A DNA stretch of 64,000 nucleotides, from assembly GCA_028293125.1 (NCBI GenBank), contig JAQGPJ010000068.1:1-64000 (forward strand). The letters run 5' to 3'. Each line of letters starts with the position of its first letter. The first letter of the stretch is position 1. The stretch comes from Verrucomicrobiales bacterium. Lineage in GTDB: Bacteria; Verrucomicrobiota; Verrucomicrobiia; Verrucomicrobiales; V1-33. The position numbers and the translations under genes are program-made. The notes under the pieces are model-generated. The model did no database searches. It was not told where the DNA came from and saw only the letters and a list, made by a program, of their open reading frames with translations. Below are positions 5,156 through 28,690 of the stretch, in pieces.

Positions 5156-5395
5156 TCAGAGTTCGGCCAGATAGCGCTGTGGATTCTTTTCGAATTTCGC
5201 CACACAGGGCTGGCAGCAGAATTTCACCTGCTGGCCATCATAAGTTTTGGTGATGACGGGGCCCATGGACCCCAGCTTGTTATCAGAGAGGACGCAGGTG
5301 TCCTTGGTGTAAGGCTTCACGCCCGCGGTGCCGGCAGGGGTGCCGGCACAGGAAACGAGTCCGGCGGCGGCGATCAGTGTCAGAATGGTTTTCAT
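5156..5395 (-). CDS. Small secreted Cys-rich (putative metal-binding) protein
   Basis: MKTILTLIAAAGLVSCAG lipobox-like start, then KPYTKDTCVLSDNKLGSMGPVITKTYDGQQVKFCCQPCVAKFEKNPQRYLAEL; paralogous to 7623-7919. Confidence 0.75.
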   Translation of the reverse strand: MKTILTLIAAAGLVSCAGTPAGTAGVKPYTKDTCVLSDNKLGSMGPVITKTYDGQQVKFCCQPCVAKFEKNPQRYLAEL

Positions 5396-5429: not shown

Positions 5430-7592
5430 TCAGAAGCGGAAACGGAGGCCTCCGCCAAAGCCGTAGTCGGAGTGATACTGGGTGATCAGGGAAAAGGTTT
5501 TGTTGAGCAGATGCTCGGCGCCCGCGCTCCACTCCCATTGGGAGCCGGTGTCGTATTGGACCTCGGCGAACAGGTTCACCCGGTCGGTCAGCTGCAGGCG
5601 TTTGCTGAGTCCCGCGCGGACGTCCCCCTCCCCATCGACCGCGAGCGAACTGTTGATGAGATACGGCAGACGGTATTCGACTCCCGCGAAGGGACGGTCT
5701 TCGGAATCCTCTCCGTTGGTGATACGCCATCCAAGGATCGTGGAGAAGTTCGGGTTGAAATACCTCCGCCAGCCGAGGTCGATTTCATATTCCGTGTCAT
5801 CGTCCGGGTAGCCGGCTTCCCAGTCGGCATACCAGTCGTTATGGGAATTTCTCGCGGTCAGCCGGCCTTCGCTCATGTGGCTCTGAAGCGTTCCGTCCAG
5901 CAGGAGGTAAACAGGATCGTGCTCATGTCCGCCGCCATTGGGGGTGTGCGAAAGCCCGGCCTGATGACCTGAGCCTCCGGATGCGGAGGGCATGCCGGGC
6001 ATGCCTGGCATTCCGTGCTCTCCGGGCTTGGCGGAATGTCCGCCGCCGCCGCCGGCACCACCGGCCGCCCCGTCGCTGAGGGGAGGCTGCCAGCTGCTGT
6101 CCTGATAGGAGAAAATCCGGGTCATGCCCGCGTGCATATGATAGAGAAGGTGGCAGTGGAACAGCCAGTCGCCGCGGTCATTGGCTTCAAACTCCACCGT
6201 GCGTCGCCCCATCGGGGGGAGATCGATCGTGTGTTTGAGCGGCGACAGTTTTCCCTGGCCTGCAAGGATCCGGAAGAAGTGGCCGTGCAGATGCAGCGGA
6301 TGGTGCATCATGGTGTCGTTGATGAACTCCAGACGGATGACTTCGCCCTTTTTGATCGGGATCACGCCGTCCTCGGCAAAGGTCCGGCCATTGAAGGACC
6401 AGATATAACGCTCCATGTCTCCGGTCGCCCGCAGAGTGAGGGTGCGGCGCGGCAGACTCTTGGGAAGCTCTGTGGATTTCGGGGACCTCAACCGGGAGTA
6501 AGGGGAGAGGGGGCGTTCAGGTTCGGTGGCGAGCGCCTGGGCATCCGTCACCGGCTTCGCGTCCATGTCCTCCATCGCCGCCATCAGATGGGCATCCATC
6601 CGGTAGTTGTCCGGCTTGGGAACCTCCGGCGCGGGATGCTCCCCGCCCTCGCCGAACCACAGGGAGGCATGGCCGGAGCCATCCTGGGCGGTGGCGCGGA
6701 GTTCCCATTTGCCAGCCTTGGGGATGGTGACGAGAAGGTCGTAGGTTTCCGCCATGCCGATGAGAAGGCGCTTCACCTGAATGGGTTGAACGTCAGGGCC
6801 GTCAGCCGCCACGATCCGGAGCGGGCCGTTTGCGGACTGGAGGTAAAAATAAGTGGCGGCGGCGGCGTTGATGAAGCGGACGCGCACGGTTTCCCCCGGC
6901 TGGCCCGGGATGGTGGTGGATTCCCGGCCATTGGCCAGGAAGGCATCGTAGGCCACGTCCGATATGTCCATGGCGGGCATCCGGCTCCGCTCGCGCTGCC
7001 AGAATTCCTTCAGGGCTCCGGCCTTCGCGGCTCCGGTCAGGCTCTGGATGCTGCCTTTCTTAAACGCATACCACTCGCTCTCGCGGTTGAGGGTCCGCAT
7101 GATTTCCTCCGCTGATCCCCGGGTCCAGTCGGAGAGCACCACGACATGATCACGGTCCGCCTTCACGGGCTCACCGCTCCTCGGCTCAATCACGATGGAG
7201 CCGAAGACTCCGATCTGCTCCTGGAGCGCCGTGTGACTGTGATACCAGTAGGTGCCGGAGTGGATGATGGGAAATTCGAAGGTGTGGGTGGTGCCTGGCT
7301 CGATCGGCGGGGTGGTCACGCCGGGCACTCCATCCTGTTCGTTCGGCAGCAGCAGGCCGTGCCAGTGGATGGAGGTGGTTTCTTTCCTGAGCTGGTTATG
7401 CACGCGGATGCGGGCGGTGTCTCCGACCTTGAAACGGATGGTCGGTCCAGGGATGCCTCCATTCACGGTGATCGCCCGCGCCGCCGGGTGACCGGGTGGA
7501 GACCACCGTTGCTCGGAGATGCTGAGATCGTACTCCACCATGCGGCCGTGGGCCGCGAGGATGGAGAGGAGAAGGAGAACAAGGACTTTCAT
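5430..7592 (-). CDS. Multicopper oxidase (CopA-like) fused to CopB-like outer-membrane beta-barrel
   Basis: All MCO copper motifs present (SIHWHG, YWYHSH, HPLHLHGHFF, HCHLLYHMHAGM), Met/Gly/His linker, then CopB-like barrel (YADWEAGYPDDDTEYEIDLGWRRYFNPNFSTILGWRITNGED...GGGLRFRF) ending in aromatic-X-F. Confidence 0.85.
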   Translation of the reverse strand: MKVLVLLLLSILAAHGRMVEYDLSISEQRWSPPGHPAARAITVNGGIPGPTIRFKVGDTARIRVHNQLRKETTSIHWHGLLLPNEQDGVPGVTTPPIEPGTTHTFEFPIIHSGTYWYHSHTALQEQIGVFGSIVIEPRSGEPVKADRDHVVVLSDWTRGSAEEIMRTLNRESEWYAFKKGSIQSLTGAAKAGALKEFWQRERSRMPAMDISDVAYDAFLANGRESTTIPGQPGETVRVRFINAAAATYFYLQSANGPLRIVAADGPDVQPIQVKRLLIGMAETYDLLVTIPKAGKWELRATAQDGSGHASLWFGEGGEHPAPEVPKPDNYRMDAHLMAAMEDMDAKPVTDAQALATEPERPLSPYSRLRSPKSTELPKSLPRRTLTLRATGDMERYIWSFNGRTFAEDGVIPIKKGEVIRLEFINDTMMHHPLHLHGHFFRILAGQGKLSPLKHTIDLPPMGRRTVEFEANDRGDWLFHCHLLYHMHAGMTRIFSYQDSSWQPPLSDGAAGGAGGGGGHSAKPGEHGMPGMPGMPSASGGSGHQAGLSHTPNGGGHEHDPVYLLLDGTLQSHMSEGRLTARNSHNDWYADWEAGYPDDDTEYEIDLGWRRYFNPNFSTILGWRITNGEDSEDRPFAGVEYRLPYLINSSLAVDGEGDVRAGLSKRLQLTDRVNLFAEVQYDTGSQWEWSAGAEHLLNKTFSLITQYHSDYGFGGGLRFRF

Positions 7593-7622: not shown

Positions 7623-7919
7623 TTACCTGGCTTTGAGTTTCCTGAGATACTTGGCGGGATCCTTGTCGAAGTCCTTTTTGCAGGGCTTGCAGCAAAGTTT
7701 GATCTCCTGGCCCTTGTGGGTGAAGGCCACTGTATCGTCCATGGCCTCCAGAGCGTCTCCGGAGACAATGCAGGTTTTGAGCGGGTAGGGTTTAACCTTC
7801 CCCGCCTTTTCCTGCCTGGCTGGCTTTCCCTCTTTGCCGGGTTCCGGGGATGGCGCCGCCATCGCCAGGGAGTTCACGGCGATGGCGAGAACGGCGGTCA
7901 TGAGCAGCTTCCTTTTCAT
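7623..7919 (-). CDS. Small secreted Cys-rich (putative metal-binding) protein
   Basis: MKRKLLMTAVLAIAVNSLAMA signal; KPYPLKTCIVSGDALEAMDDTVAFTHKGQEIKLCCKPCKKDFDKDPAKYLRKL; start at 7919 preferred over 7961 because a promoter-like motif ends at 7962. Confidence 0.75.
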   Translation of the reverse strand: MKRKLLMTAVLAIAVNSLAMAAPSPEPGKEGKPARQEKAGKVKPYPLKTCIVSGDALEAMDDTVAFTHKGQEIKLCCKPCKKDFDKDPAKYLRKLKAR

Positions 7920-7961: not shown

Positions 7962-7992
7962 GGGTTAATGTCCGGCACGGCGGAAAACCCTT
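7962..7992 (-). promoter_or_regulatory. Candidate ECF-sigma promoter, site 1 (copper genes)
   Basis: Minus strand AAGGGTTTTCCGCCGTGCCGGACATTAACCC; same bipartite motif and 31-nt length as 9427-9457 and 9823-9853; ends 43 nt from the start codon at 7919. Confidence 0.5.
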
Positions 7993-7994
7993 GG

Positions 7995-8020
7995 AAAAAC
8001 GACCGGTTTTTCACGGTCGT
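7995..8020 (-). terminator. Rho-independent terminator after the sigma factor gene
   Basis: Minus strand ACGACCG-TGAAAAAC-CGGTCGT-TTTT: 7-bp stem followed by a T run, just 3' of the gene ending at 8041. Confidence 0.65.
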
Positions 8021-8040
8021 GCCCATCACATTCTTTTGTC

Positions 8041-8607
8041 TCAGTTGGCAAGATCCTTGAGCCGTTCCTTGAGGAGCTGGCGGGCGCGATAGATACGCGT
8101 TTCCACAGCCTTGGGGCTGCAGCCGATCATGGAGGCGATTTCCGCGTGGCTCATCCCTTCGTAAATGAAGAGGACCATCGCCTCCCGCAGATCGTCAGGA
8201 AGGGTCTGGAACGCGCGGTCCACCGCCAAGGTTGTTTCCATGGCTTCGGCTGCTTCCAATGGATTGCGGCCGGGGTCGATCGGTTGCGGGCAGATGGACG
8301 GCTCCTCCCGGGGGGCATCCAGCGAAACGGTGGGGTGGCGCCGGTTCCACCGCGCATGATTTCGGGCGAGGTTCCCGGAGATGGCGAAAAGATAGGTCGG
8401 AAAATTGCCGCCCGGCCGGTAGCGGTTTTTCGCCTGATAAAGTTTGACGAATGTCTCCTGCGCCAAGTCGACCGCGGTATCGCGGTTCCCGGTCATGCGG
8501 AAAAGGAAGGCGGTGACCCTTTCCCCCCATCGGTCCATAAGGGCGTTCAGCGCCAGGTCGTCCCCCTTCGCCAGCCGTGCCATCAGTTCAAAATCGGAGG
8601 GCTCCAT
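8041..8607 (-). CDS. ECF RNA polymerase sigma factor (CnrH-like by context)
   Basis: ALMDRWGERVTAFLFRMTGNRDTAVDLAQETFVKLYQAKNRYRPGGNFPTYLFAISGNLARNHARW (region 2) and LREAMVLFIYEGMSHAEIASMIGCSPKAVETRIYRARQLLKERL (region 4); start MEPSDFEL chosen. Confidence 0.9.
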   Translation of the reverse strand: MEPSDFELMARLAKGDDLALNALMDRWGERVTAFLFRMTGNRDTAVDLAQETFVKLYQAKNRYRPGGNFPTYLFAISGNLARNHARWNRRHPTVSLDAPREEPSICPQPIDPGRNPLEAAEAMETTLAVDRAFQTLPDDLREAMVLFIYEGMSHAEIASMIGCSPKAVETRIYRARQLLKERLKDLAN

Positions 8608-9091
8608 CGTGGGTGGCCTCCTGGTTGCCGCGGCTCCGGTCGGGTTCACTGCGTGAGAAATCCAGAGCGTAGGGCAGCACGGCCTCCAAATAGCGGGCGG
8701 ATTGCTTCCGGTCGAGCTGGGCGGAGGTCTGGTAGATGTGGTTCAGCATGGCCTGCCGGCATTCCAGATGGACGGCGGCGTGCTCCTTCAGCGCGGCCTC
8801 CAGTTCCGGATTCAGCGAGGTCCCCTCCCTGGCCAGGGTCTCCAGCCTCCGGTGGGCACGCGCGATGCGGGCGCACATCTCGACGCACTTCGGCTGGTAG
8901 GCCGCGTGAAGCCCGCTCACCTTGCGGAACTGATCGTCGGAAAGCTTGAGTTCGCTTCGCAGCCAGACCAGTTCTGGCATGGTGTCGAGCAGCACTCCTC
9001 CGCGCTCCTGCTGCTTCCGGAAATGCGTGAAGCAGAAAGCGCAGGCTCCGGCAGAAAGAATCAGCAGCAGGATGAGGAGCGGCTTTTTCAT
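8588..9091 (-). CDS. Periplasmic heavy-metal sensor (CnrX/ZraP-like)
   Basis: N-terminal TM anchor, helical periplasmic domain PELVWLRSELKLSDDQFRKVSGLHAAYQPKCVEMCARIARAHRRLETLA; lies between the 98-aa TM protein and the ECF sigma, the cnrY-X-H order. Confidence 0.75.
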   Translation of the reverse strand: MKKPLLILLLILSAGACAFCFTHFRKQQERGGVLLDTMPELVWLRSELKLSDDQFRKVSGLHAAYQPKCVEMCARIARAHRRLETLAREGTSLNPELEAALKEHAAVHLECRQAMLNHIYQTSAQLDRKQSARYLEAVLPYALDFSRSEPDRSRGNQEATHDGALRF

Positions 9092-9384
9092 CGCAGGTGA
9101 GTGGGGGAGAAGGGATTGATCGATTCAATGTAGGCGCTCCGGCTGTCCGGCTGCCCCGGAGCGGTGACCGCGCCAAGCCAGAGCCCGAAAGCGACAGTCG
9201 AGGCGAGACCGGTGACCACCCCCAGAGGACGGGTGATCAGGCCAATGACAGTCTCATACCATGGAGAGGGGACCGGAGCCTGGGCGTTTTCGATGCGCCG
9301 CCAGACTCCCTGACGGAAGGAGGCTGGCAGTGGCTGGCTGCCCCGCGCGGAGCGGAGCAAGTCGTCAAACTCGGAATCGTTCAT
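9088..9384 (-). CDS. Small single-TM protein, putative anti-sigma factor (CnrY-like by context)
   Basis: 98 aa, cytosolic N-terminus MNDSEFDDLLRSARGSQPLPASFRQGVWRRIENA, TM helix VVTGLASTVAFGLWLGAV; 4-bp ATGA overlap with the downstream sensor gene. Confidence 0.65.
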   Translation of the reverse strand: MNDSEFDDLLRSARGSQPLPASFRQGVWRRIENAQAPVPSPWYETVIGLITRPLGVVTGLASTVAFGLWLGAVTAPGQPDSRSAYIESINPFSPTHLR

Positions 9385-9426
9385 AGTGATCTTTCTCTAA
9401 AAGGGTGGAGTCAGAGAGTCTGCCAC

Positions 9427-9457
9427 GGGTAAAACACCATGGCCGGAGGAAACCCTT
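9427..9457 (-). promoter_or_regulatory. Candidate ECF-sigma promoter, site 2 (cnrYXH-like operon)
   Basis: Minus strand AAGGGTTTCCTCCGGCCATGGTGTTTTACCC; ends 43 nt from the ATG at 9384, the same distance as site 1. Confidence 0.5.
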
Positions 9458-9822
9458 TGGATTTTTCCGTCACTTGATGATTCCGTCATTTTCCGGAGCC
9501 GGACGGCGTTGGTCAAAGGTTGCCGCAAGCGGCTTGCCCTGGACACCCCATGACTGATTTGGACGGAGCGCATCCCCGCCTGAGCAAGGGCCAGCTCCAT
9601 CTGAGCAGGGACTATGAGGAAAGCACCCTCTGCTCCGGGGATCACGATCCTCATTTCCACAGTCACCCGTGATCCCGGGACTCCAGCAGCCGGATCAAAC
9701 AGGTTCTCATGGGCGAAGCCGTTTGAAAAAGCGGCTCCTGGAATGCCATGCCATGGAGGATTCCCGCATCCGGGTACGCGGAAATTCCCTTGGGAATGAA
9801 ATAAGCTGGGGTTGGCGGGGCG

Positions 9823-9853
9823 TAGGGTTTTCCCGGTCCCCATGCTGTTGCCC
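9823..9853 (+). promoter_or_regulatory. Candidate ECF-sigma promoter, site 3 (efflux operon)
   Basis: TAGGGTTTTCCCGGTCCCCATGCTGTTGCCC, same motif pair and length, about 118 nt upstream of the TolC-family start at 9971. Confidence 0.4.
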
Positions 9854-9970: not shown

Positions 9971-12376
9971 ATGGATCCTGTCCGGAACATTCCCGCTTGG
10001 CGGATGCTGATGGTTGGCTCGTGTCTGGCGCTGCAGGGCTGCGGCACTCCGGATGCGCGGGCGGCGGAGCGTCAGGACGGGCAGCAGCGGAAGGCGGAGG
10101 CCGCGGTGGTCAAACGTCTGGAGGCGCACGGGGTGGAACTGCCGGAGGCGGTGCATCCCCCGCCGGCGTCGCGTTATGCTGATCCCTCCCCTTCGCCGCG
10201 GACGTCCGCGCCACCGGATGCCGGGTTTGGGGAACCGGCGCGCAATACCACATGGGAACAGGCGCTGCCCCGGGGAGCGGATGGCATGGTGAGTCTGGAC
10301 CGCGCCGGGGCGGTGCGGGTGGCGCTGCTGAATTCGCCGGACTTCCAGCGCGAGCGCGAGGATCTTTTTCTCTCCGCCCAGGATCTGAGGGGGGAGGAGC
10401 ACAAATTTGAGCTTCAGGGCGGCCTGACGAGCCGGGGCAGCCGCCTCACCGGTGCCCGCGCGGCGGACGAAAGCGCCCGGCGCTCCACGGGCTCCGTGGA
10501 GTCCTCGGCGGCTTTGAGCAAAACCACCAGAACCGGAGGCCGTTTCCTGCTGGATCTGGCAAACTCCGTGCTCGTCAGCCTCGGCGGCGGGCCGGACAAG
10601 GTCATCGGTTCCGCCCTCAACCTCAGCGTGGTCCAGCCACTGCTGCGCCACGGGTCCCGGAAGTATGTCATGGAGGATCTCACCCAGGCGCAGCGCAATC
10701 TGGTGGCCAATGTCCGGCGGCTGGAGCAGTTCCGGCGCGGGTTCTACATTCAGACGACCGCCGGCCGCAGTGTGGCCCAAGGACCGGTGCGGGGGCAGGG
10801 CGATGCGGAAAGCGTGGGCCTGCTGGCCGGAGCTCCGGGCGGAACCTCGGGAGCGCAGGAGCCGGGCGGCTTTCTGGGTCTACTGCTGAGCGGTCAGAAG
10901 ATTAGGAATCAGGAGGCCGTGCTTCAGGCGCTGCAGGACAGCCTGGCCCAGCTGGAGGCCGCCTTCGAGGCCGGACGCATCTCCAACCGTCTCCAGGTGC
11001 TGCAGACGCGTCAGGCTCTTTACAACAGCCAGAGTGTGCTGCTCACGGCCCGTGAATCGTGGCGCACCCAGCTGGACAATTACAAGATCAGCCTCGGCCT
11101 GCCGCCGTCGCTGCCGGTGGCGATTCAGGATCCGCTGCTGGAACAGTCCCGGCTGGTGGATCCCGACACCACCGCCCTGCAGAAGGACCTCACCGCCAAA
11201 CTGAACGCCCTGCGCCAGCGGACCGACCTGACCACGCTTCAGGTGCTGGGCGGGGAGGCCGGGGAGCTGCTGAAGTTCAAGCCCCGCGCCGAGGGCCGGA
11301 TCCGTGCGGCGGAACAGAACCTGAATGAGTTTCATGGCGGACTGAAGCCCCGGCAGGACCAGCTGGCCCGCCTGCGCCAGCGCCCGGAGGTGGCCACCAT
11401 GGGCACGGCGTCGGAACTTTTCGATCCTGCGGCCACGGAGTCCACCCATGACCGTCTGGTCAAAACCTTTCCCAGTCTGAAGAGCGGGATGATGGAGAAC
11501 TTCGCGGAGATTGAGAAACTGCGCACGGCGGTGCCGGCGGACCGTCCGCCGGCGGAGGTCCGCGCGGATCTGCAGCGGTTGGCGGGTTCCATTTCCGGTC
11601 AGCTGCTGGAGCTTTCCCTGCATCAGGCCGCCAGCCGGCTGGAGACCGCCACCTTGGAGACCATCGAGCTGCCCCCGGAGACCGCCTTGGAACTCGCTCG
11701 CGCCCAGCGTCTGGACTGGGCCAACGCCCAGTCGCGGCTGGTGGACGCCTGGCGGAGAATCGCGGTCAGCGCCGAGGCCCTGAAGCCGGGTCTGGACCTG
11801 CTGGTCAGCGGCCGCATCCCCACGGCGGGGGATGACGGCACCGAATTCAGCTACGGCAGCAGCACCCTGAATCTGGGAGTGAACTTGGATCTGCCCTGGG
11901 ACAAGGTGGACGAACGCGGAGCCTATCAGGAGTCGCTCATCAGCTATCAGCGCTCCCGGCGCGACTTCATCCGCTTCAGCGACCAGGTGACGCTCAGTCT
12001 TCAGAACACCCTGCGCGTGATCCGCCTGATCCAGATGAACTTTGAAATCCGCCGCGCCGCCGTGCGCGCCGCCATCTCGCAGGTGGATCTGGCCCGTCTG
12101 CGCCTGAACGAGCCGCCGCGTCCCGACCAGACGGCCACACCCTTCGGCGCCACCACGGCCCGCGACCTTGTGTCCGCGCTGAACGATCTGCTGAACGCGC
12201 AGAATGACTTCCAAAGCGCCTGGATCACTTACGACGTCCTGCGGCTCACTCTCGATTTCGAACTCGGCACCATGCGGCTGGATGACCACGGCCTATGGGC
12301 GGATCCCGGCGCGATAACGGCTGAATCCGTCTCCCGCCGCCTGCCGCCGGCTCCTTCCCTGACTTCCGTCAACTAG
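9971..12376 (+). CDS. TolC-family outer-membrane efflux lipoprotein with large central insertion
   Basis: Lipobox MVGSCLALQGC; TolC-type helical repeats in both halves (LQALQDSLAQLEAAFEAGRISNRLQVLQTRQALYNSQ; YQESLISYQRSRRDFIRFSDQVTLSLQNTLR); about 800 aa. Confidence 0.8.
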   Translation: MDPVRNIPAWRMLMVGSCLALQGCGTPDARAAERQDGQQRKAEAAVVKRLEAHGVELPEAVHPPPASRYADPSPSPRTSAPPDAGFGEPARNTTWEQALPRGADGMVSLDRAGAVRVALLNSPDFQREREDLFLSAQDLRGEEHKFELQGGLTSRGSRLTGARAADESARRSTGSVESSAALSKTTRTGGRFLLDLANSVLVSLGGGPDKVIGSALNLSVVQPLLRHGSRKYVMEDLTQAQRNLVANVRRLEQFRRGFYIQTTAGRSVAQGPVRGQGDAESVGLLAGAPGGTSGAQEPGGFLGLLLSGQKIRNQEAVLQALQDSLAQLEAAFEAGRISNRLQVLQTRQALYNSQSVLLTARESWRTQLDNYKISLGLPPSLPVAIQDPLLEQSRLVDPDTTALQKDLTAKLNALRQRTDLTTLQVLGGEAGELLKFKPRAEGRIRAAEQNLNEFHGGLKPRQDQLARLRQRPEVATMGTASELFDPAATESTHDRLVKTFPSLKSGMMENFAEIEKLRTAVPADRPPAEVRADLQRLAGSISGQLLELSLHQAASRLETATLETIELPPETALELARAQRLDWANAQSRLVDAWRRIAVSAEALKPGLDLLVSGRIPTAGDDGTEFSYGSSTLNLGVNLDLPWDKVDERGAYQESLISYQRSRRDFIRFSDQVTLSLQNTLRVIRLIQMNFEIRRAAVRAAISQVDLARLRLNEPPRPDQTATPFGATTARDLVSALNDLLNAQNDFQSAWITYDVLRLTLDFELGTMRLDDHGLWADPGAITAESVSRRLPPAPSLTSVN

Positions 12377-12384
12377 CGAATTCT

Positions 12385-13884
12385 ATGAAACTCACCCTGT
12401 TTCCGAAACTGGCAGCCAAACTTCCGCCCGCCGTGCGCCGCCCGCGTGTGTGGGTGCCGGGGGTGCTGTTGCTGGGCGGGGCGCTGGCTCTGACGCTGCG
12501 CACCTCCCGGCCCTCCGCCGGCGGTGCCGCCATTCTCACGGCGGCGGTTCAGACCGCGCCCTTTGTGGAGGAAATCCTGGAGTCCGGGGAACTGGAGAGC
12601 GCCAGCAATGTGGAGGTCCGCTGCCGCGTGCGCAGCATGGCGGGCGCGGCCATCCTGACTCTGGTCACCGAGGGATCGGCCGTGAAAAAAGGCAATCTGA
12701 TCATGCAGCTCGATGATTCCGATCTCAAAAACCGGATGGTGGACCAGCAGATCAATGTCAACAAAAGCGCGGCGGAGCTGGCCCAGGCCCAGGCGGACCT
12801 TTCGAGTTCGGAGATGGCGCTGAGGGAATATCAGTCCGGTCTTTTTCTGGAAACCGAAAAGACCTATGAAAGCGCGGCCTTCGTGGCTGAGGAGAACCTG
12901 CGCCGCGCCAACGAGTATCTGCGCTACAGCAAACACCTGGCGCAGAAGGGGTATATATCCGAAGTCCAGCTGGAGGCTGACACTTTCGCCCTCGGCAAGG
13001 CCACCAAGGAGCTGGAGCTTTCCAAAACCAAACTGGATGTGCTGCGGCTGTTCACGAAGGAAAAGACCGTCAAGGAGCTGATGGCCAATGTGGAGAAATT
13101 CAAAACCAAGGTCGCCACCTCCGAACGCAGTTATCAGATCGACGTGCGGCGGCTGGAGGATATCAAGGAGCAGATCGCCTTCTGCAGAATCGCCGCGCCG
13201 CTGGACGGGCAGGTGGTCTACGCCAACGACCAGCGCAACCGCGGCTCTTCCGAGCCACTGATCGCGGAGGGCAAGGTGGTGCGCGAGAACCAGGTGCTGG
13301 TGCGCCTGCCGGACCCCACCCGCATGCAGGTGCTGGCGCGGATCAACGAGTCCCGCGTGGACCGCATCCGCAACGGCCAGAAGGTGCGCATCTCCCTGGA
13401 CGCCCTGCCGGGAACGGTGCTCACCGGCAAGGTGGACAGCGTCAGTGACTATCCGATGCCGCCGAATCCCTATTACAGCAATTTAAAGTACTACGCCTGT
13501 GAGATTCCGGTGGTGAATCCGCCGGTCAATATCCGTCCGGGCATGACCTCCAGCGTGTCCATTCTGGTCGAACAGCTGAAGGAGGCGCGGCAGGTGCCGC
13601 TGGCCGCCGTGTTCGCGAGGGATGACCGGCACTACTGCCTGGTGCGGCATGAGGATGAGGGCATGGAGGCCCGCGAGATCACGGTGGGCGCCTCCAACGA
13701 TGCCATGGCCGTGGTGGAGAACGGCCTGACGGATGGCGAGCAGGTGGTGCTGTCCCCGCAGCCATGGCTGCATGATGTGAGCCTGCCGGCTCCGCGGGCG
13801 ACGGTGCGGTCCGCTCCCGCGGATGCTCCGGACCCCGGTCCCCGCAAAGGAAGCCAGGCCGGATCCCCGGTCGCCAGCCGATGA
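12385..13884 (+). CDS. HlyD/MacA-like periplasmic adaptor subunit
   Basis: N-terminal TM, lipoyl-like half motifs, long coiled coil, AAVFARDDRHYCLVRHEDEGMEAREITVGASNDAMAVVENGLTDGEQVVLSP. Confidence 0.9.
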   Translation: MKLTLFPKLAAKLPPAVRRPRVWVPGVLLLGGALALTLRTSRPSAGGAAILTAAVQTAPFVEEILESGELESASNVEVRCRVRSMAGAAILTLVTEGSAVKKGNLIMQLDDSDLKNRMVDQQINVNKSAAELAQAQADLSSSEMALREYQSGLFLETEKTYESAAFVAEENLRRANEYLRYSKHLAQKGYISEVQLEADTFALGKATKELELSKTKLDVLRLFTKEKTVKELMANVEKFKTKVATSERSYQIDVRRLEDIKEQIAFCRIAAPLDGQVVYANDQRNRGSSEPLIAEGKVVRENQVLVRLPDPTRMQVLARINESRVDRIRNGQKVRISLDALPGTVLTGKVDSVSDYPMPPNPYYSNLKYYACEIPVVNPPVNIRPGMTSSVSILVEQLKEARQVPLAAVFARDDRHYCLVRHEDEGMEAREITVGASNDAMAVVENGLTDGEQVVLSPQPWLHDVSLPAPRATVRSAPADAPDPGPRKGSQAGSPVASR

Positions 13885-16043
13885 GCGCGCTGCGGATCAG
13901 CGGCCTGCGCAAGGATTACCTGGTGGGGGCGGAGGCAGTGCCAGTGCTGAAGGGCATCGACCTTGATGTGCCGGAGGGCGATTACGTGGCCATCATGGGC
14001 CCGTCGGGTTCCGGCAAAAGCACGTTGCTCAATGTGCTGGGCTGCTTGGACCATCCCACCGCCGGGCATTACTGGCTGGGCGGGCAGGATGTGGCGGCGC
14101 TCAATGACGACGAGGTCTCCCAGCTGCGCGGGGATCACATCGGCTTTGTCTTCCAGTCCTACAATCTCATTCCCCAGCTGACGGTGATCGAGAACATCGC
14201 CACGCCTCTGGAATACCGCGCCGCGGCCGGACCGGAGGAGCTGGCGCGGTGTCAGGAACTGGCGGAGCGAGTGGGGCTGGGCACACGCCTGGACCACCGG
14301 GCGACCCAGCTTTCCGGCGGGCAGCAGCAGCGGGTGGGCATCGCGCGCAGTCTGGTTAATGCACCGGCCTTCATCCTCGCGGATGAGCCCACGGGGAATC
14401 TGGACACCGTCACTACGGCGGAGATTCTGAATCTGCTGGACCAGCTCAACGGGGCGGGCAAAACCATCGTCATGGTCACGCACGAGGATGAGGTCGCGCA
14501 CCGTGCGCGGCGCATCGTCCGGCTGCGGGACGGCGTCATCGTTTCCGACGAGCGGCTGCGCCCGCCCGCAGGCCCGCCCGTTCCTGCCCTATCCGGGCCC
14601 GGAGCCGCCAAAGCCGGGGATGTGGGGACGGAGGCCGGGATAACGGTTGATCCGGCGGCGCCTTTGGCGGAGGCATCCCCCCGCACAGGGATGGCGGTGC
14701 AGCCAAAGCTATCCTGGCGGAGCTCCCTGGAGCAGGCGCTGAAGCCGGTGCAGCTGGGATTCCGCAATCTGATTCTGCATCCCCTGCGGTCGGCGCTGAC
14801 AGTGCTGGGCATGTTTATTGGCGTGGCCAGTGTCATCTGGCTCATGGCCATCGGCGAGGGCATCGGACGGCAGGCCATGGAGCAGATCGAGAAGCTTGGC
14901 GCGTCCAATATCATCCTGCGCACCGTGGCTCCCTCGACAGATCCCGGACAGTCGCGGCGCAGCAATTTCGGTATCAGCGTGGCGGATTACGGGCGCCTGC
15001 GCCGCCTGCTGCCGTCCATCGTCAATGCCGTCCCCATGCAGGAGTACACGCACTCGCTCTGCCAGGCCCGGGGACACATGGTTTACGCCCGCCTGCTGGG
15101 ATGCACGGAGGACTACGCGCCGCTGCACCAGCAGGTGCTCAAGGCCGGGCGCTTTTTGTCCAGTCTGGACATGGAGCGCAAGGCCAAGGTCTGTGTGCTT
15201 TCGCAGGCTCTCTGCGACCAGCTGTTCCGCATCGAGGATCCGCTCGGACAATCCGTGCAGCTCAATGGCGACTTCTACCGTGTGGTGGGCATCAGCGATG
15301 CCGATGTCAGCACCGAGGCCGTCGCTGGAGGACAGGGCCGCCCGCAGGCGGCGAATCCGCTCATGGTGGGCTGCATTCCCCTTTCCACCTACTACACCAA
15401 CATCAACGATCCCGGCAGCCGTGCCACCGACGGCGGACTGTCCGTGGATCAGGTGACCCTGGTGCTGCGCAGCCAGCAGGACGTGCTGCCCGCCGCCGAT
15501 CTCATCCGCAGCGATCTGGAGCGCACGCACCGCGACAAGGATTACGAGGTCATCGCGCCGCTGGAGCTGTTGGAGCAGGCGAGGAGCACGCGGCTCATGT
15601 TCATGGCCATGCTGGGGCTGGTGGCGGCGATCTCCCTGCTGGTGGGCGGCATCGGCATTATGAACATCATGCTGGCCACCGTCACCGAGCGCACCCGGGA
15701 GATCGGCATCCGCCGGGCGCTGGGCGCACGGCGGCGGGACATCACGCGGCAGTTCCTGGCGGAGACCGCAGTGCTTTCCGGGGTGGGCGGCGCGGTCGGC
15801 ATTCTGGTGGGTCTGGCATGCAGTCCCGCCCTGACCGGGCTGCGCTCACTGCTGACTCTGTTGTTTCCCAAACTGCTCGCCTCCGCGCCTGAGACCATCC
15901 GGAATCTGGATCCTGTGGTGGTTCCCTGGTCACTGCCTCTGGCGGCGGGTATTTCCCTGGCGACCGGTGTCCTCTTCGGCCTTTATCCGGCGCGGCGGGC
16001 CGCAGCCATGCATCCCATCGACGCGCTGCGGCATGTGAATTGA
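13881..16043 (+). CDS. MacB-like ABC transporter (fused ATPase and FtsX-type permease)
   Basis: Walker A GPSGSGKST, signature LSGGQQQRVGIARSL, Walker B ILADEPTGNLD; FtsX-type C-terminus ISLLVGGIGIMNIMLATVTERTREIGIRRALGARRRDI; 4-bp overlap with the adaptor. Confidence 0.93.
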   Translation: MSALRISGLRKDYLVGAEAVPVLKGIDLDVPEGDYVAIMGPSGSGKSTLLNVLGCLDHPTAGHYWLGGQDVAALNDDEVSQLRGDHIGFVFQSYNLIPQLTVIENIATPLEYRAAAGPEELARCQELAERVGLGTRLDHRATQLSGGQQQRVGIARSLVNAPAFILADEPTGNLDTVTTAEILNLLDQLNGAGKTIVMVTHEDEVAHRARRIVRLRDGVIVSDERLRPPAGPPVPALSGPGAAKAGDVGTEAGITVDPAAPLAEASPRTGMAVQPKLSWRSSLEQALKPVQLGFRNLILHPLRSALTVLGMFIGVASVIWLMAIGEGIGRQAMEQIEKLGASNIILRTVAPSTDPGQSRRSNFGISVADYGRLRRLLPSIVNAVPMQEYTHSLCQARGHMVYARLLGCTEDYAPLHQQVLKAGRFLSSLDMERKAKVCVLSQALCDQLFRIEDPLGQSVQLNGDFYRVVGISDADVSTEAVAGGQGRPQAANPLMVGCIPLSTYYTNINDPGSRATDGGLSVDQVTLVLRSQQDVLPAADLIRSDLERTHRDKDYEVIAPLELLEQARSTRLMFMAMLGLVAAISLLVGGIGIMNIMLATVTERTREIGIRRALGARRRDITRQFLAETAVLSGVGGAVGILVGLACSPALTGLRSLLTLLFPKLLASAPETIRNLDPVVVPWSLPLAAGISLATGVLFGLYPARRAAAMHPIDALRHVN

Positions 16044-27196: not shown

Positions 27197-28690
27197 ATGG
27201 CTCCCTCCTGCGCGAATCCGGACATTATTCTCATCGGCGGCGGCGTCATGTCCGCCAATTTGGGCGCTTTGATCAAACGGCTGGATCCCCGGCTGCGGAT
27301 TCAGGTGTTCGAGAGGGGGGAGGCGATGGCGATGGAAAGCTCCAATGGCTGGAGCAACGCCGGCACCGGCCATGCGGGGCTTTGTGAACTGAGCTACACT
27401 CCCTCACGCGGAGCCGATGGAACCGTGAACGTGGACAAGGCGCTGGAGATCTTCGGACAATTTGAGGAGACGCTTCAGTTCTGGAGTTATGCCGCCGCCA
27501 GCGGCATGGCGGAGCAGCCGGCGGACTTCATCCGTCCGGTGCCGCATCTCAGCTTCGTCCACGGGCGGGAGCAGGTGGAGTTTCTGCGCTCAAGGTTTGC
27601 GGGGCTGTCCCGGCATCCCTTTTTCGAAACCATGGAGTTCACCACTGATCCGGACGTCATCGCCGGATGGGCCCCGCTGCTGATGGAGGGACAGGAAAAA
27701 ATGCCGGTGGCGGCCACCAAAGTGGACACCGGGACGGATGTGGACTTTGGAGTGCTCGCCCGGAGGCTGCTTGCGTGGCTGGGGGCTCAGGAGGGCTGCG
27801 CGGTGGCCTCCCGGCACCGGGTGGATGGTCTCAGGCGGTGCCACGGGGGCTGGGAGGTGGAGGTCACGGACTTGGCCGCAGGCACCTCCCGCACCTGCCG
27901 GGCGAAGTTTGTTTTTGTGGGGGCGGGCGGGGGCAGCCTGCCGCTGCTGCAGAAAGCGGGCATTCCGGAGGCGCGCGGTCTGGGAGGATTCCCCATCGGC
28001 GGCCAGTGGCTGGTGTGCCGGAAGCCGGAGATTGTCCGCCGCCATCAGGCCAAGGTGTATGGCCAGGCCTTGGACGCGGCGCCGACCATGGCGGTGCCGC
28101 ATCTTGACACGCGGGTGCTCAACGGGCAAAAGGCGCTTCTTTTTGGACCCTTTGCGGCATGGACGGGTAAATTCCTGCAACAGCAGGGCAGCTGGCTGGA
28201 CCTTCCGCTCTCAGTGCGTCCGGACAATCTGCTCACTCTGCTGCGCATCGGGTGGAGCAATCTTCCCCTTATCCACTATCTCATGAAGGAGGGCGCGCAG
28301 TCCATGGATTCCCGCCTGGCGATGCTGCGCCAATTTTATCCGGAAGCCCATGAGGAGGACTGGACCCTGGAAAGAGCCGGCATCCGCGTGCAGGCTATCA
28401 AAAAGACGGATGGCGAGGCCGGCATCGTCCATTATGGCACGGAACTGATCAAAAGCGCGGACCATAGCATCGCGGCTCTGCTGGGAGCCTCGCCCGGAGC
28501 CTCGGTATGCGTTCACATCGCTGTCGGGGTCATCCGCGCCTGCCTGCCGCATTTGCTGGACAGTGATGAGGGCCGGGAGCGGATGCGGGAGATGATCCCC
28601 GCACGCGGTGAGGAGCTGCGGCAGCCGGAGAATGCCGGAAAATTCCGGGAACTGCACCGGCATTGTCTGAAAACCCTGGGCCTGATCTGA
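27197..28690 (+). CDS. mqo: Malate:quinone oxidoreductase
   Basis: IILIGGGVMSANLGALIKRLDPRLRIQVFERG; ESSNGWSNAGTGHAGLCELSYTP; LLGASPGASVCVHIAVGVI. Confidence 0.95.
   Translation: MAPSCANPDIILIGGGVMSANLGALIKRLDPRLRIQVFERGEAMAMESSNGWSNAGTGHAGLCELSYTPSRGADGTVNVDKALEIFGQFEETLQFWSYAAASGMAEQPADFIRPVPHLSFVHGREQVEFLRSRFAGLSRHPFFETMEFTTDPDVIAGWAPLLMEGQEKMPVAATKVDTGTDVDFGVLARRLLAWLGAQEGCAVASRHRVDGLRRCHGGWEVEVTDLAAGTSRTCRAKFVFVGAGGGSLPLLQKAGIPEARGLGGFPIGGQWLVCRKPEIVRRHQAKVYGQALDAAPTMAVPHLDTRVLNGQKALLFGPFAAWTGKFLQQQGSWLDLPLSVRPDNLLTLLRIGWSNLPLIHYLMKEGAQSMDSRLAMLRQFYPEAHEEDWTLERAGIRVQAIKKTDGEAGIVHYGTELIKSADHSIAALLGASPGASVCVHIAVGVIRACLPHLLDSDEGRERMREMIPARGEELRQPENAGKFRELHRHCLKTLGLI

Follow-up and report, generated by a model that had tools for sequence, protein, structure and literature searches.

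The question raised by this locus is whether a small ECF sigma factor gene, located between a group of copper genes and an efflux operon (Table 1), drives its own transcription and that of its neighbors. The window (the whole stretch of DNA analyzed, 64,000 nt in length) contains three 31-nt strings, one upstream of each transcription unit, which an earlier note had proposed as promoters of this sigma factor. A direct check of the sequence confirmed their coordinates and strands, as well as the 43 nt separating sites 1 and 2 from their start codons (7919 and 9384, respectively), while a scan for sigma-70 promoters gave no match at the sites.

The pattern as first drawn, AGGGTTTYC-N18/19-CCC, matched 4 times within the 64-kb window, compared to 0.06 matches expected from shuffles. 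Across the whole genome (6.48 Mb), there were 24 matches to AGGGTTTYC..CCC and 10 to its reversed form used as a control, and the pattern was therefore considered unspecific as written; the exact pattern was missing at almost all orthologous module loci of the relatives. The fourth match within the window lies at 28647-28677 on the minus strand; its spacer is one base longer, and the conserved motif described below was not matched there.

Table 1. Features of the locus, ordered by position.
Feature	Position	Strand	Description
YHS2	5156..5395	-	Small protein, YHS/TRASH-like domain; PF04945, E 1e-6, under the gathering score
Multicopper oxidase	5430..7592	-	CopA type, 720 aa; Cu-oxidase domains
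YHS1	7623..7919	-	Small exported protein, YHS/TRASH-like Cys motif, start 7919; PF04945 weak, E 0.0024
Site 1	7964..7992	-	Predicted promoter of the YHS1-multicopper oxidase-YHS2 operon; AAGGGTTTT-ccgccgtgc-CGGACATTAAC
Site 1, variant -10	7968-7974	-	CGGACAT
Terminator-like hairpin	about 7994-8020	-	Includes a T run; situated 3' of the sigma gene, ahead of site 1; fold -13.4 kcal/mol
ECF sigma factor	8041..8607	-	188 aa; its ATG (8607) lies within the 3' end of the cnrX-like gene
CnrX-like protein	8588..9091	-	167 aa, putative periplasmic metal sensor anchored in the membrane
CnrY-like protein	9088..9384	-	98 aa, putative membrane anti-sigma factor; first in module, conserved
Site 2	9429..9457	-	Predicted promoter of the cnrY-cnrX-sigma operon; AAGGGTTTC-ctccggcca-TGGTGTTTTAC
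Site 2, -35-like block	9450-9457	-
Site 2, -10-like core	9433-9438	-	GGTGTT
Site 2, AC	9429-9430	-
Site 3	9823..9853	+	Only the -35-like half is present; the CGGxGTT core is missing from the conserved spacing
Efflux operon	9971-16043	+	Outer-membrane factor (OMF), HlyD, MacB; 3' of site 3, adjoins the module

A Conserved Bipartite Motif at the Sigma Modules of Relatives

The nature of the shared signal was derived computationally from 36 regions upstream of orthologous modules, the window being excluded, by means of an unbiased two-block EM search. This yielded a single bipartite motif, GAGGG.TT(G)-N9-cGG(a/t)GTT(g), with one spacer length, in 33 of the 36 regions, at a log-likelihood of 324, compared to 81-91 for six shuffled sets. 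Direct reading of the regions upstream of the relatives' modules revealed AAGGGTTT, followed by GGTGTT at a constant distance. The consensus, refined with 90 non-redundant sites from outside the window, was RAGGGDTT-N10-CGG(T/A)GT(T/A)-NN-AC, in which the first position of the -35-like block is G or A (R), its third-from-last position is variable (T, G or A; D), and the AC at motif positions 28-29 is conserved. The spacer sequences have diverged among sites while the two blocks are fixed, and the motif is oriented toward the gene start, with its end commonly lying 45-115 nt from the ATG. Of the halves drawn initially, the left one corresponds to RAGGGDTT and could be maintained, but not the right one: T..RCCC overlaps the conserved element only in its final AC. 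This half is mis-centered, and the predicted -10 element, as read from the alignment, is corrected to CGG(T/A)GT(T/A)-NN-AC.

When the position matrix was scanned and orthologous loci were inspected, the motif was found to be kept in relatives carrying the same sigma module and to cluster there, with no random spread over genomes. Two outcomes that the earlier note had named as refuting its proposal, a motif at random positions and a lack of conserved sites in such relatives, were thus not observed. For the 38 genomes carrying the module, 83 exact matches were listed, of which 67 lay at most 8 kb from a module sigma gene, and in 105 other genomes exact matches were near background (64, versus 49 in the control). 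A separate scan covered loci, mostly of additional Verrucomicrobiota groups, whose sequences are not shared with the training set, and there the motif was often found before the module. In contrast, no strong match above threshold was present at module loci L119, L173, L174, L179, L183, L184, L186 and others, so that conservation across module loci, as judged from sequence, is broad but not universal. In the genome under study, one-mismatch matches (33, versus 20 in the control) mostly overlap long open frames; since they sit there and are little above the control, no wider regulon is claimed.

Two variations are of note. At L188, L190-L195 and L200 (Verrucomicrobia subdivision 3 and others), a clade-specific -10, CGGGGTATTAC or CGGTGTAA, replaces CGGTGTT. 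At the two Methylacidimicrobium loci, L173 and L174, the sigma and sensor genes are related, but no strong match to the motif was found, and their promoter may have diverged.

Predicted Promoters of the Sigma Module and of the Copper Operon

Site 2, upstream of the sigma module, scored 28.2 bits with the matrix built from the 90 non-window sites, ranking first among 127,944 window positions. The first matrix, also made from relatives only, gave 25.1 bits and again rank 1 in the 64 kb, the best of 30 shuffled windows reaching 18.1 bits. The claim of an ECF-type bipartite promoter before the sigma module is thus strengthened by a matrix made without this DNA and by the conservation of the site in relatives.

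Site 1, upstream of the copper operon, ranked second among the same 127,944 positions (12.9 bits, 90-site matrix), with 0.0006 such matches expected by chance per 150 nt on one strand. Its variant -10, CGGACAT, was also found before the orthologous YHS1 gene of relative G009 and at L155, where it is placed directly 3' of the sigma gene, after a T-rich stretch and before an orthologous YHS gene. In addition, RAGGGDTT-N11-GGACAT occurs only once in the 6.48-Mb genome, at site 1 itself. Because of the presence of this -10 in G009 and L155 and its single genomic occurrence with the -35, site 1 was considered a conserved variant rather than a weak chance match, and its window rank, together with the variant common to orthologous YHS1 promoters, supports its earlier description as an ECF-type promoter of the copper genes. 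This site had also been said to follow a terminator directly. A hairpin does precede it immediately, but its nature as a terminator is only modestly supported, given a z of -1.8 and that 12 of 200 shuffles fold equally well.

The multicopper oxidase of this operon matched TIGR01480 with an E of 2e-121, under the curated cut-off, and YHS1 orthologs were found within the modules of relatives. There, strong motif matches are located ahead of the cnrY operon and of the gene immediately following sigma, as well as of YHS genes and divergent genes for multicopper oxidases. The genes 3' of the motif, read from sequence, encode small Cys-rich proteins and YHS proteins and, at some loci, Cus-type outer-membrane and membrane-fusion proteins, named by sequence resemblance.

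The Module and Its Relation to Known Systems

The sigma factor contains regions 2 and 4 only (Sigma70_r2, PF04542; r4_2, PF08281; TIGR02937), and its orthologs in relatives are 50-69% identical. Sigma and sensor orthologs co-occur across the order, and the order anti-sigma, sensor, sigma is kept in most loci. The CnrY-like protein has a conserved N-terminus among its orthologs and no match in Pfam or NCBIfam. As for the CnrX-like sensor, PF13801 was found in 14 of 15 family members, and a profile search matched NccX and CnrX. Its AlphaFold model (mean pLDDT 86.7, pTM 0.66) has CnrX as the closest PDB fold (E 7.5e-4). H62, C69, C73, C111 and H118 are invariant in the alignment of 15 orthologs and represent candidate ligands; together with the adjoining copper genes, this combination of Cys and His suggests binding of Cu(I) or a comparable soft metal.

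The module shares its gene order and the CnrX fold with CnrYXH/NccYXH, the Ni/Co-sensing ECF systems of Cupriavidus metallidurans. CnrH is responsible for the transcription of cnrYXH as well as of its target operon, cnrCBAT (PMC4803752) and, likewise, the predicted promoter motif stands here before both the sigma operon and a neighboring resistance operon. The target, however, is an RND Ni/Co pump in CnrYXH and, as predicted from the motif, a CopA/YHS copper operon here. Differences extend to the sensor: in the sequence alignment, E63 of CnrX is replaced by the invariant His62, H119 corresponds to the invariant His118, M123 becomes Thr122, and three invariant cysteines (Cys69, Cys73 and Cys111) are added. 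CnrX requires Met123 for Ni/Co signaling (PMC7689651), and the ligand set that includes this residue is not reproduced here, Thr122 taking its place. The system, with its putative CnrYXH-like working but different metal ligands, was therefore filed as a CnrYXH variant. The label "CnrH-like", previously given to the sigma factor, suits the gene module but not the protein, whose sequence resembles RpoE and sigma-H more closely than CnrH.

A second relevant case is CorE (ECF44) of Myxococcus xanthus, a copper-dependent ECF sigma factor driving a multicopper oxidase (PMC3107203), a kind of target also found in the system proposed here. In CorE, regulation is exerted by a Cys-rich C-terminal extension of the sigma factor itself, with no anti-sigma (PMC10141476). 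In contrast, a separate membrane sensor pair is encoded here, and the sigma factor stops shortly after region 4 and shows no Cys-rich C-terminal tail in its alignment.

A Proposed Copper Switch and Its Alternatives

A model can be put forward in which the adjacent copper-type CnrYXH-like ECF sigma factor recognizes sites 2 and 1 as its promoters, providing autoregulation and control of the copper operon, and we consider it quite likely. The sigma factor would be held at the membrane by the putative CnrY-like anti-sigma factor, coupled to the CnrX-like sensor. By analogy with CnrYXH, the binding of a metal to this sensor outside the inner membrane would release the sigma factor, and gene content and ligand type point to copper as the most likely inducer. 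The freed sigma would transcribe two operons: its own, from site 2, which would generate positive feedback, and YHS1-multicopper oxidase-YHS2, from site 1, with transcription presumably starting near 9423 and 7958. One small switch would probably turn on both itself and the copper defense.

The main alternative is that the motif is an operator for a regulator encoded elsewhere, such as a copper repressor or a response regulator, and not a sigma site. Promoters of the RpoE/SigW type consist of two short blocks upstream of the sigma and target operons, conferring autoregulation, and their -35, as that of many ECF sigma factors, typically bears AAC; here, this is absent from RAGGGDTT, which is combined with a CGGxGTT-NN-AC -10. 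Since the -35-like block lacks AAC and the two blocks are closer together than usual, a bound regulator is formally possible, and a two-block motif with G-rich halves would be compatible with it; the -10 of site 1, degenerate by the general consensus, and the module loci lacking a strong match also speak against the sigma reading. We nevertheless judge an operator unlikely: the blocks of the motif are neither inverted nor direct repeats of each other, unlike those of most dimeric operators, their spacing is constant over many sites, the motif tracks the sigma module and falls to near background in genomes without it, and the sites face the gene start at short range.

Still less likely is the notion that this sigma factor uses all three sites, site 3 among them, as promoters, with T..RCCC as the -10. 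It is true that the three sites align without gaps, that a few relatives (L156, L176) also show TACCC/AACCC tails and that the AC at 28-29 is conserved. However, within RCCC, AC alone is generally conserved, and the invariant core CGGxGTT is missing at site 3, for which AGGGTTT is the only part in common in the site alignment. This site scored -8.4 bits (rank 653 in the window, 90-site matrix), and rescoring at shifted spacers of 8-11 provided a weak match only, at a spacer absent from relatives. Close orthologs of the efflux operon (OMF) exist in only 2 of 144 relatives, neither with a detectable sensor gene, and its placement here consequently looks lineage-specific. For one of these orthologs, no match to the motif exceeded 8 bits; for the other, the aligned start is preceded, at a distance of about 1 kb, by a match scoring 16 bits. 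Site 3 was hence rejected as a member of the system and regarded as a chance look-alike, on the grounds of its rank, its missing core and the unsupportive orthologs, and the control of the MacB-type efflux operon through it, as suggested earlier, is not supported.

Finally, that the similarity merely reflects chance or a shared ancestry of functionless intergenic DNA is highly improbable, even if the drawn pattern is common genome-wide and the one-mismatch matches fall mostly in long open frames, because a matrix from outside the window places sites 2 and 1 at ranks 1 and 2 and because spacers diverge between fixed blocks; for site 2, this explanation is already refuted.

Distribution and Significance

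Beyond this locus, we moderately favor the view that the sigma reading of sites 2 and 1 reflects a phylum-wide copper-responsive ECF switch of the Verrucomicrobiota, in which a CnrX-fold sensor would have been refitted with a Cys/His Cu(I) site and the sigma factor would read a promoter whose -35 lacks AAC (RAGGGDTT) and whose -10 is CGGxGTT. No report of this system was found in the literature searched, whose coverage did not extend to the ECF reclassification study and its predicted motifs. Such a switch would offer a promoter code that can be tested for one ECF group throughout a phylum in which few sigma regulons have been characterized. It would also connect copper genes to a CnrX-like sensor whose Cys/His set is invariant, and allow the regulon to be read directly from genomes by means of the motif.

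Some loci present additional features. At L099 (G094:C82), two full cnrY-cnrX-sigma modules are arranged in tandem; each has a motif of its own, and YHS genes lie in between. At L094, L095, L096, L101, L111, L115 and others, a hairpin, CCCGCCAG...CTGGCGGGTTG, was found just upstream of the cnrY-like gene, downstream of the promoter and between a small Cys-rich gene and cnrY. This hairpin resembles a terminator or attenuator and could limit read-through into the sigma operon.
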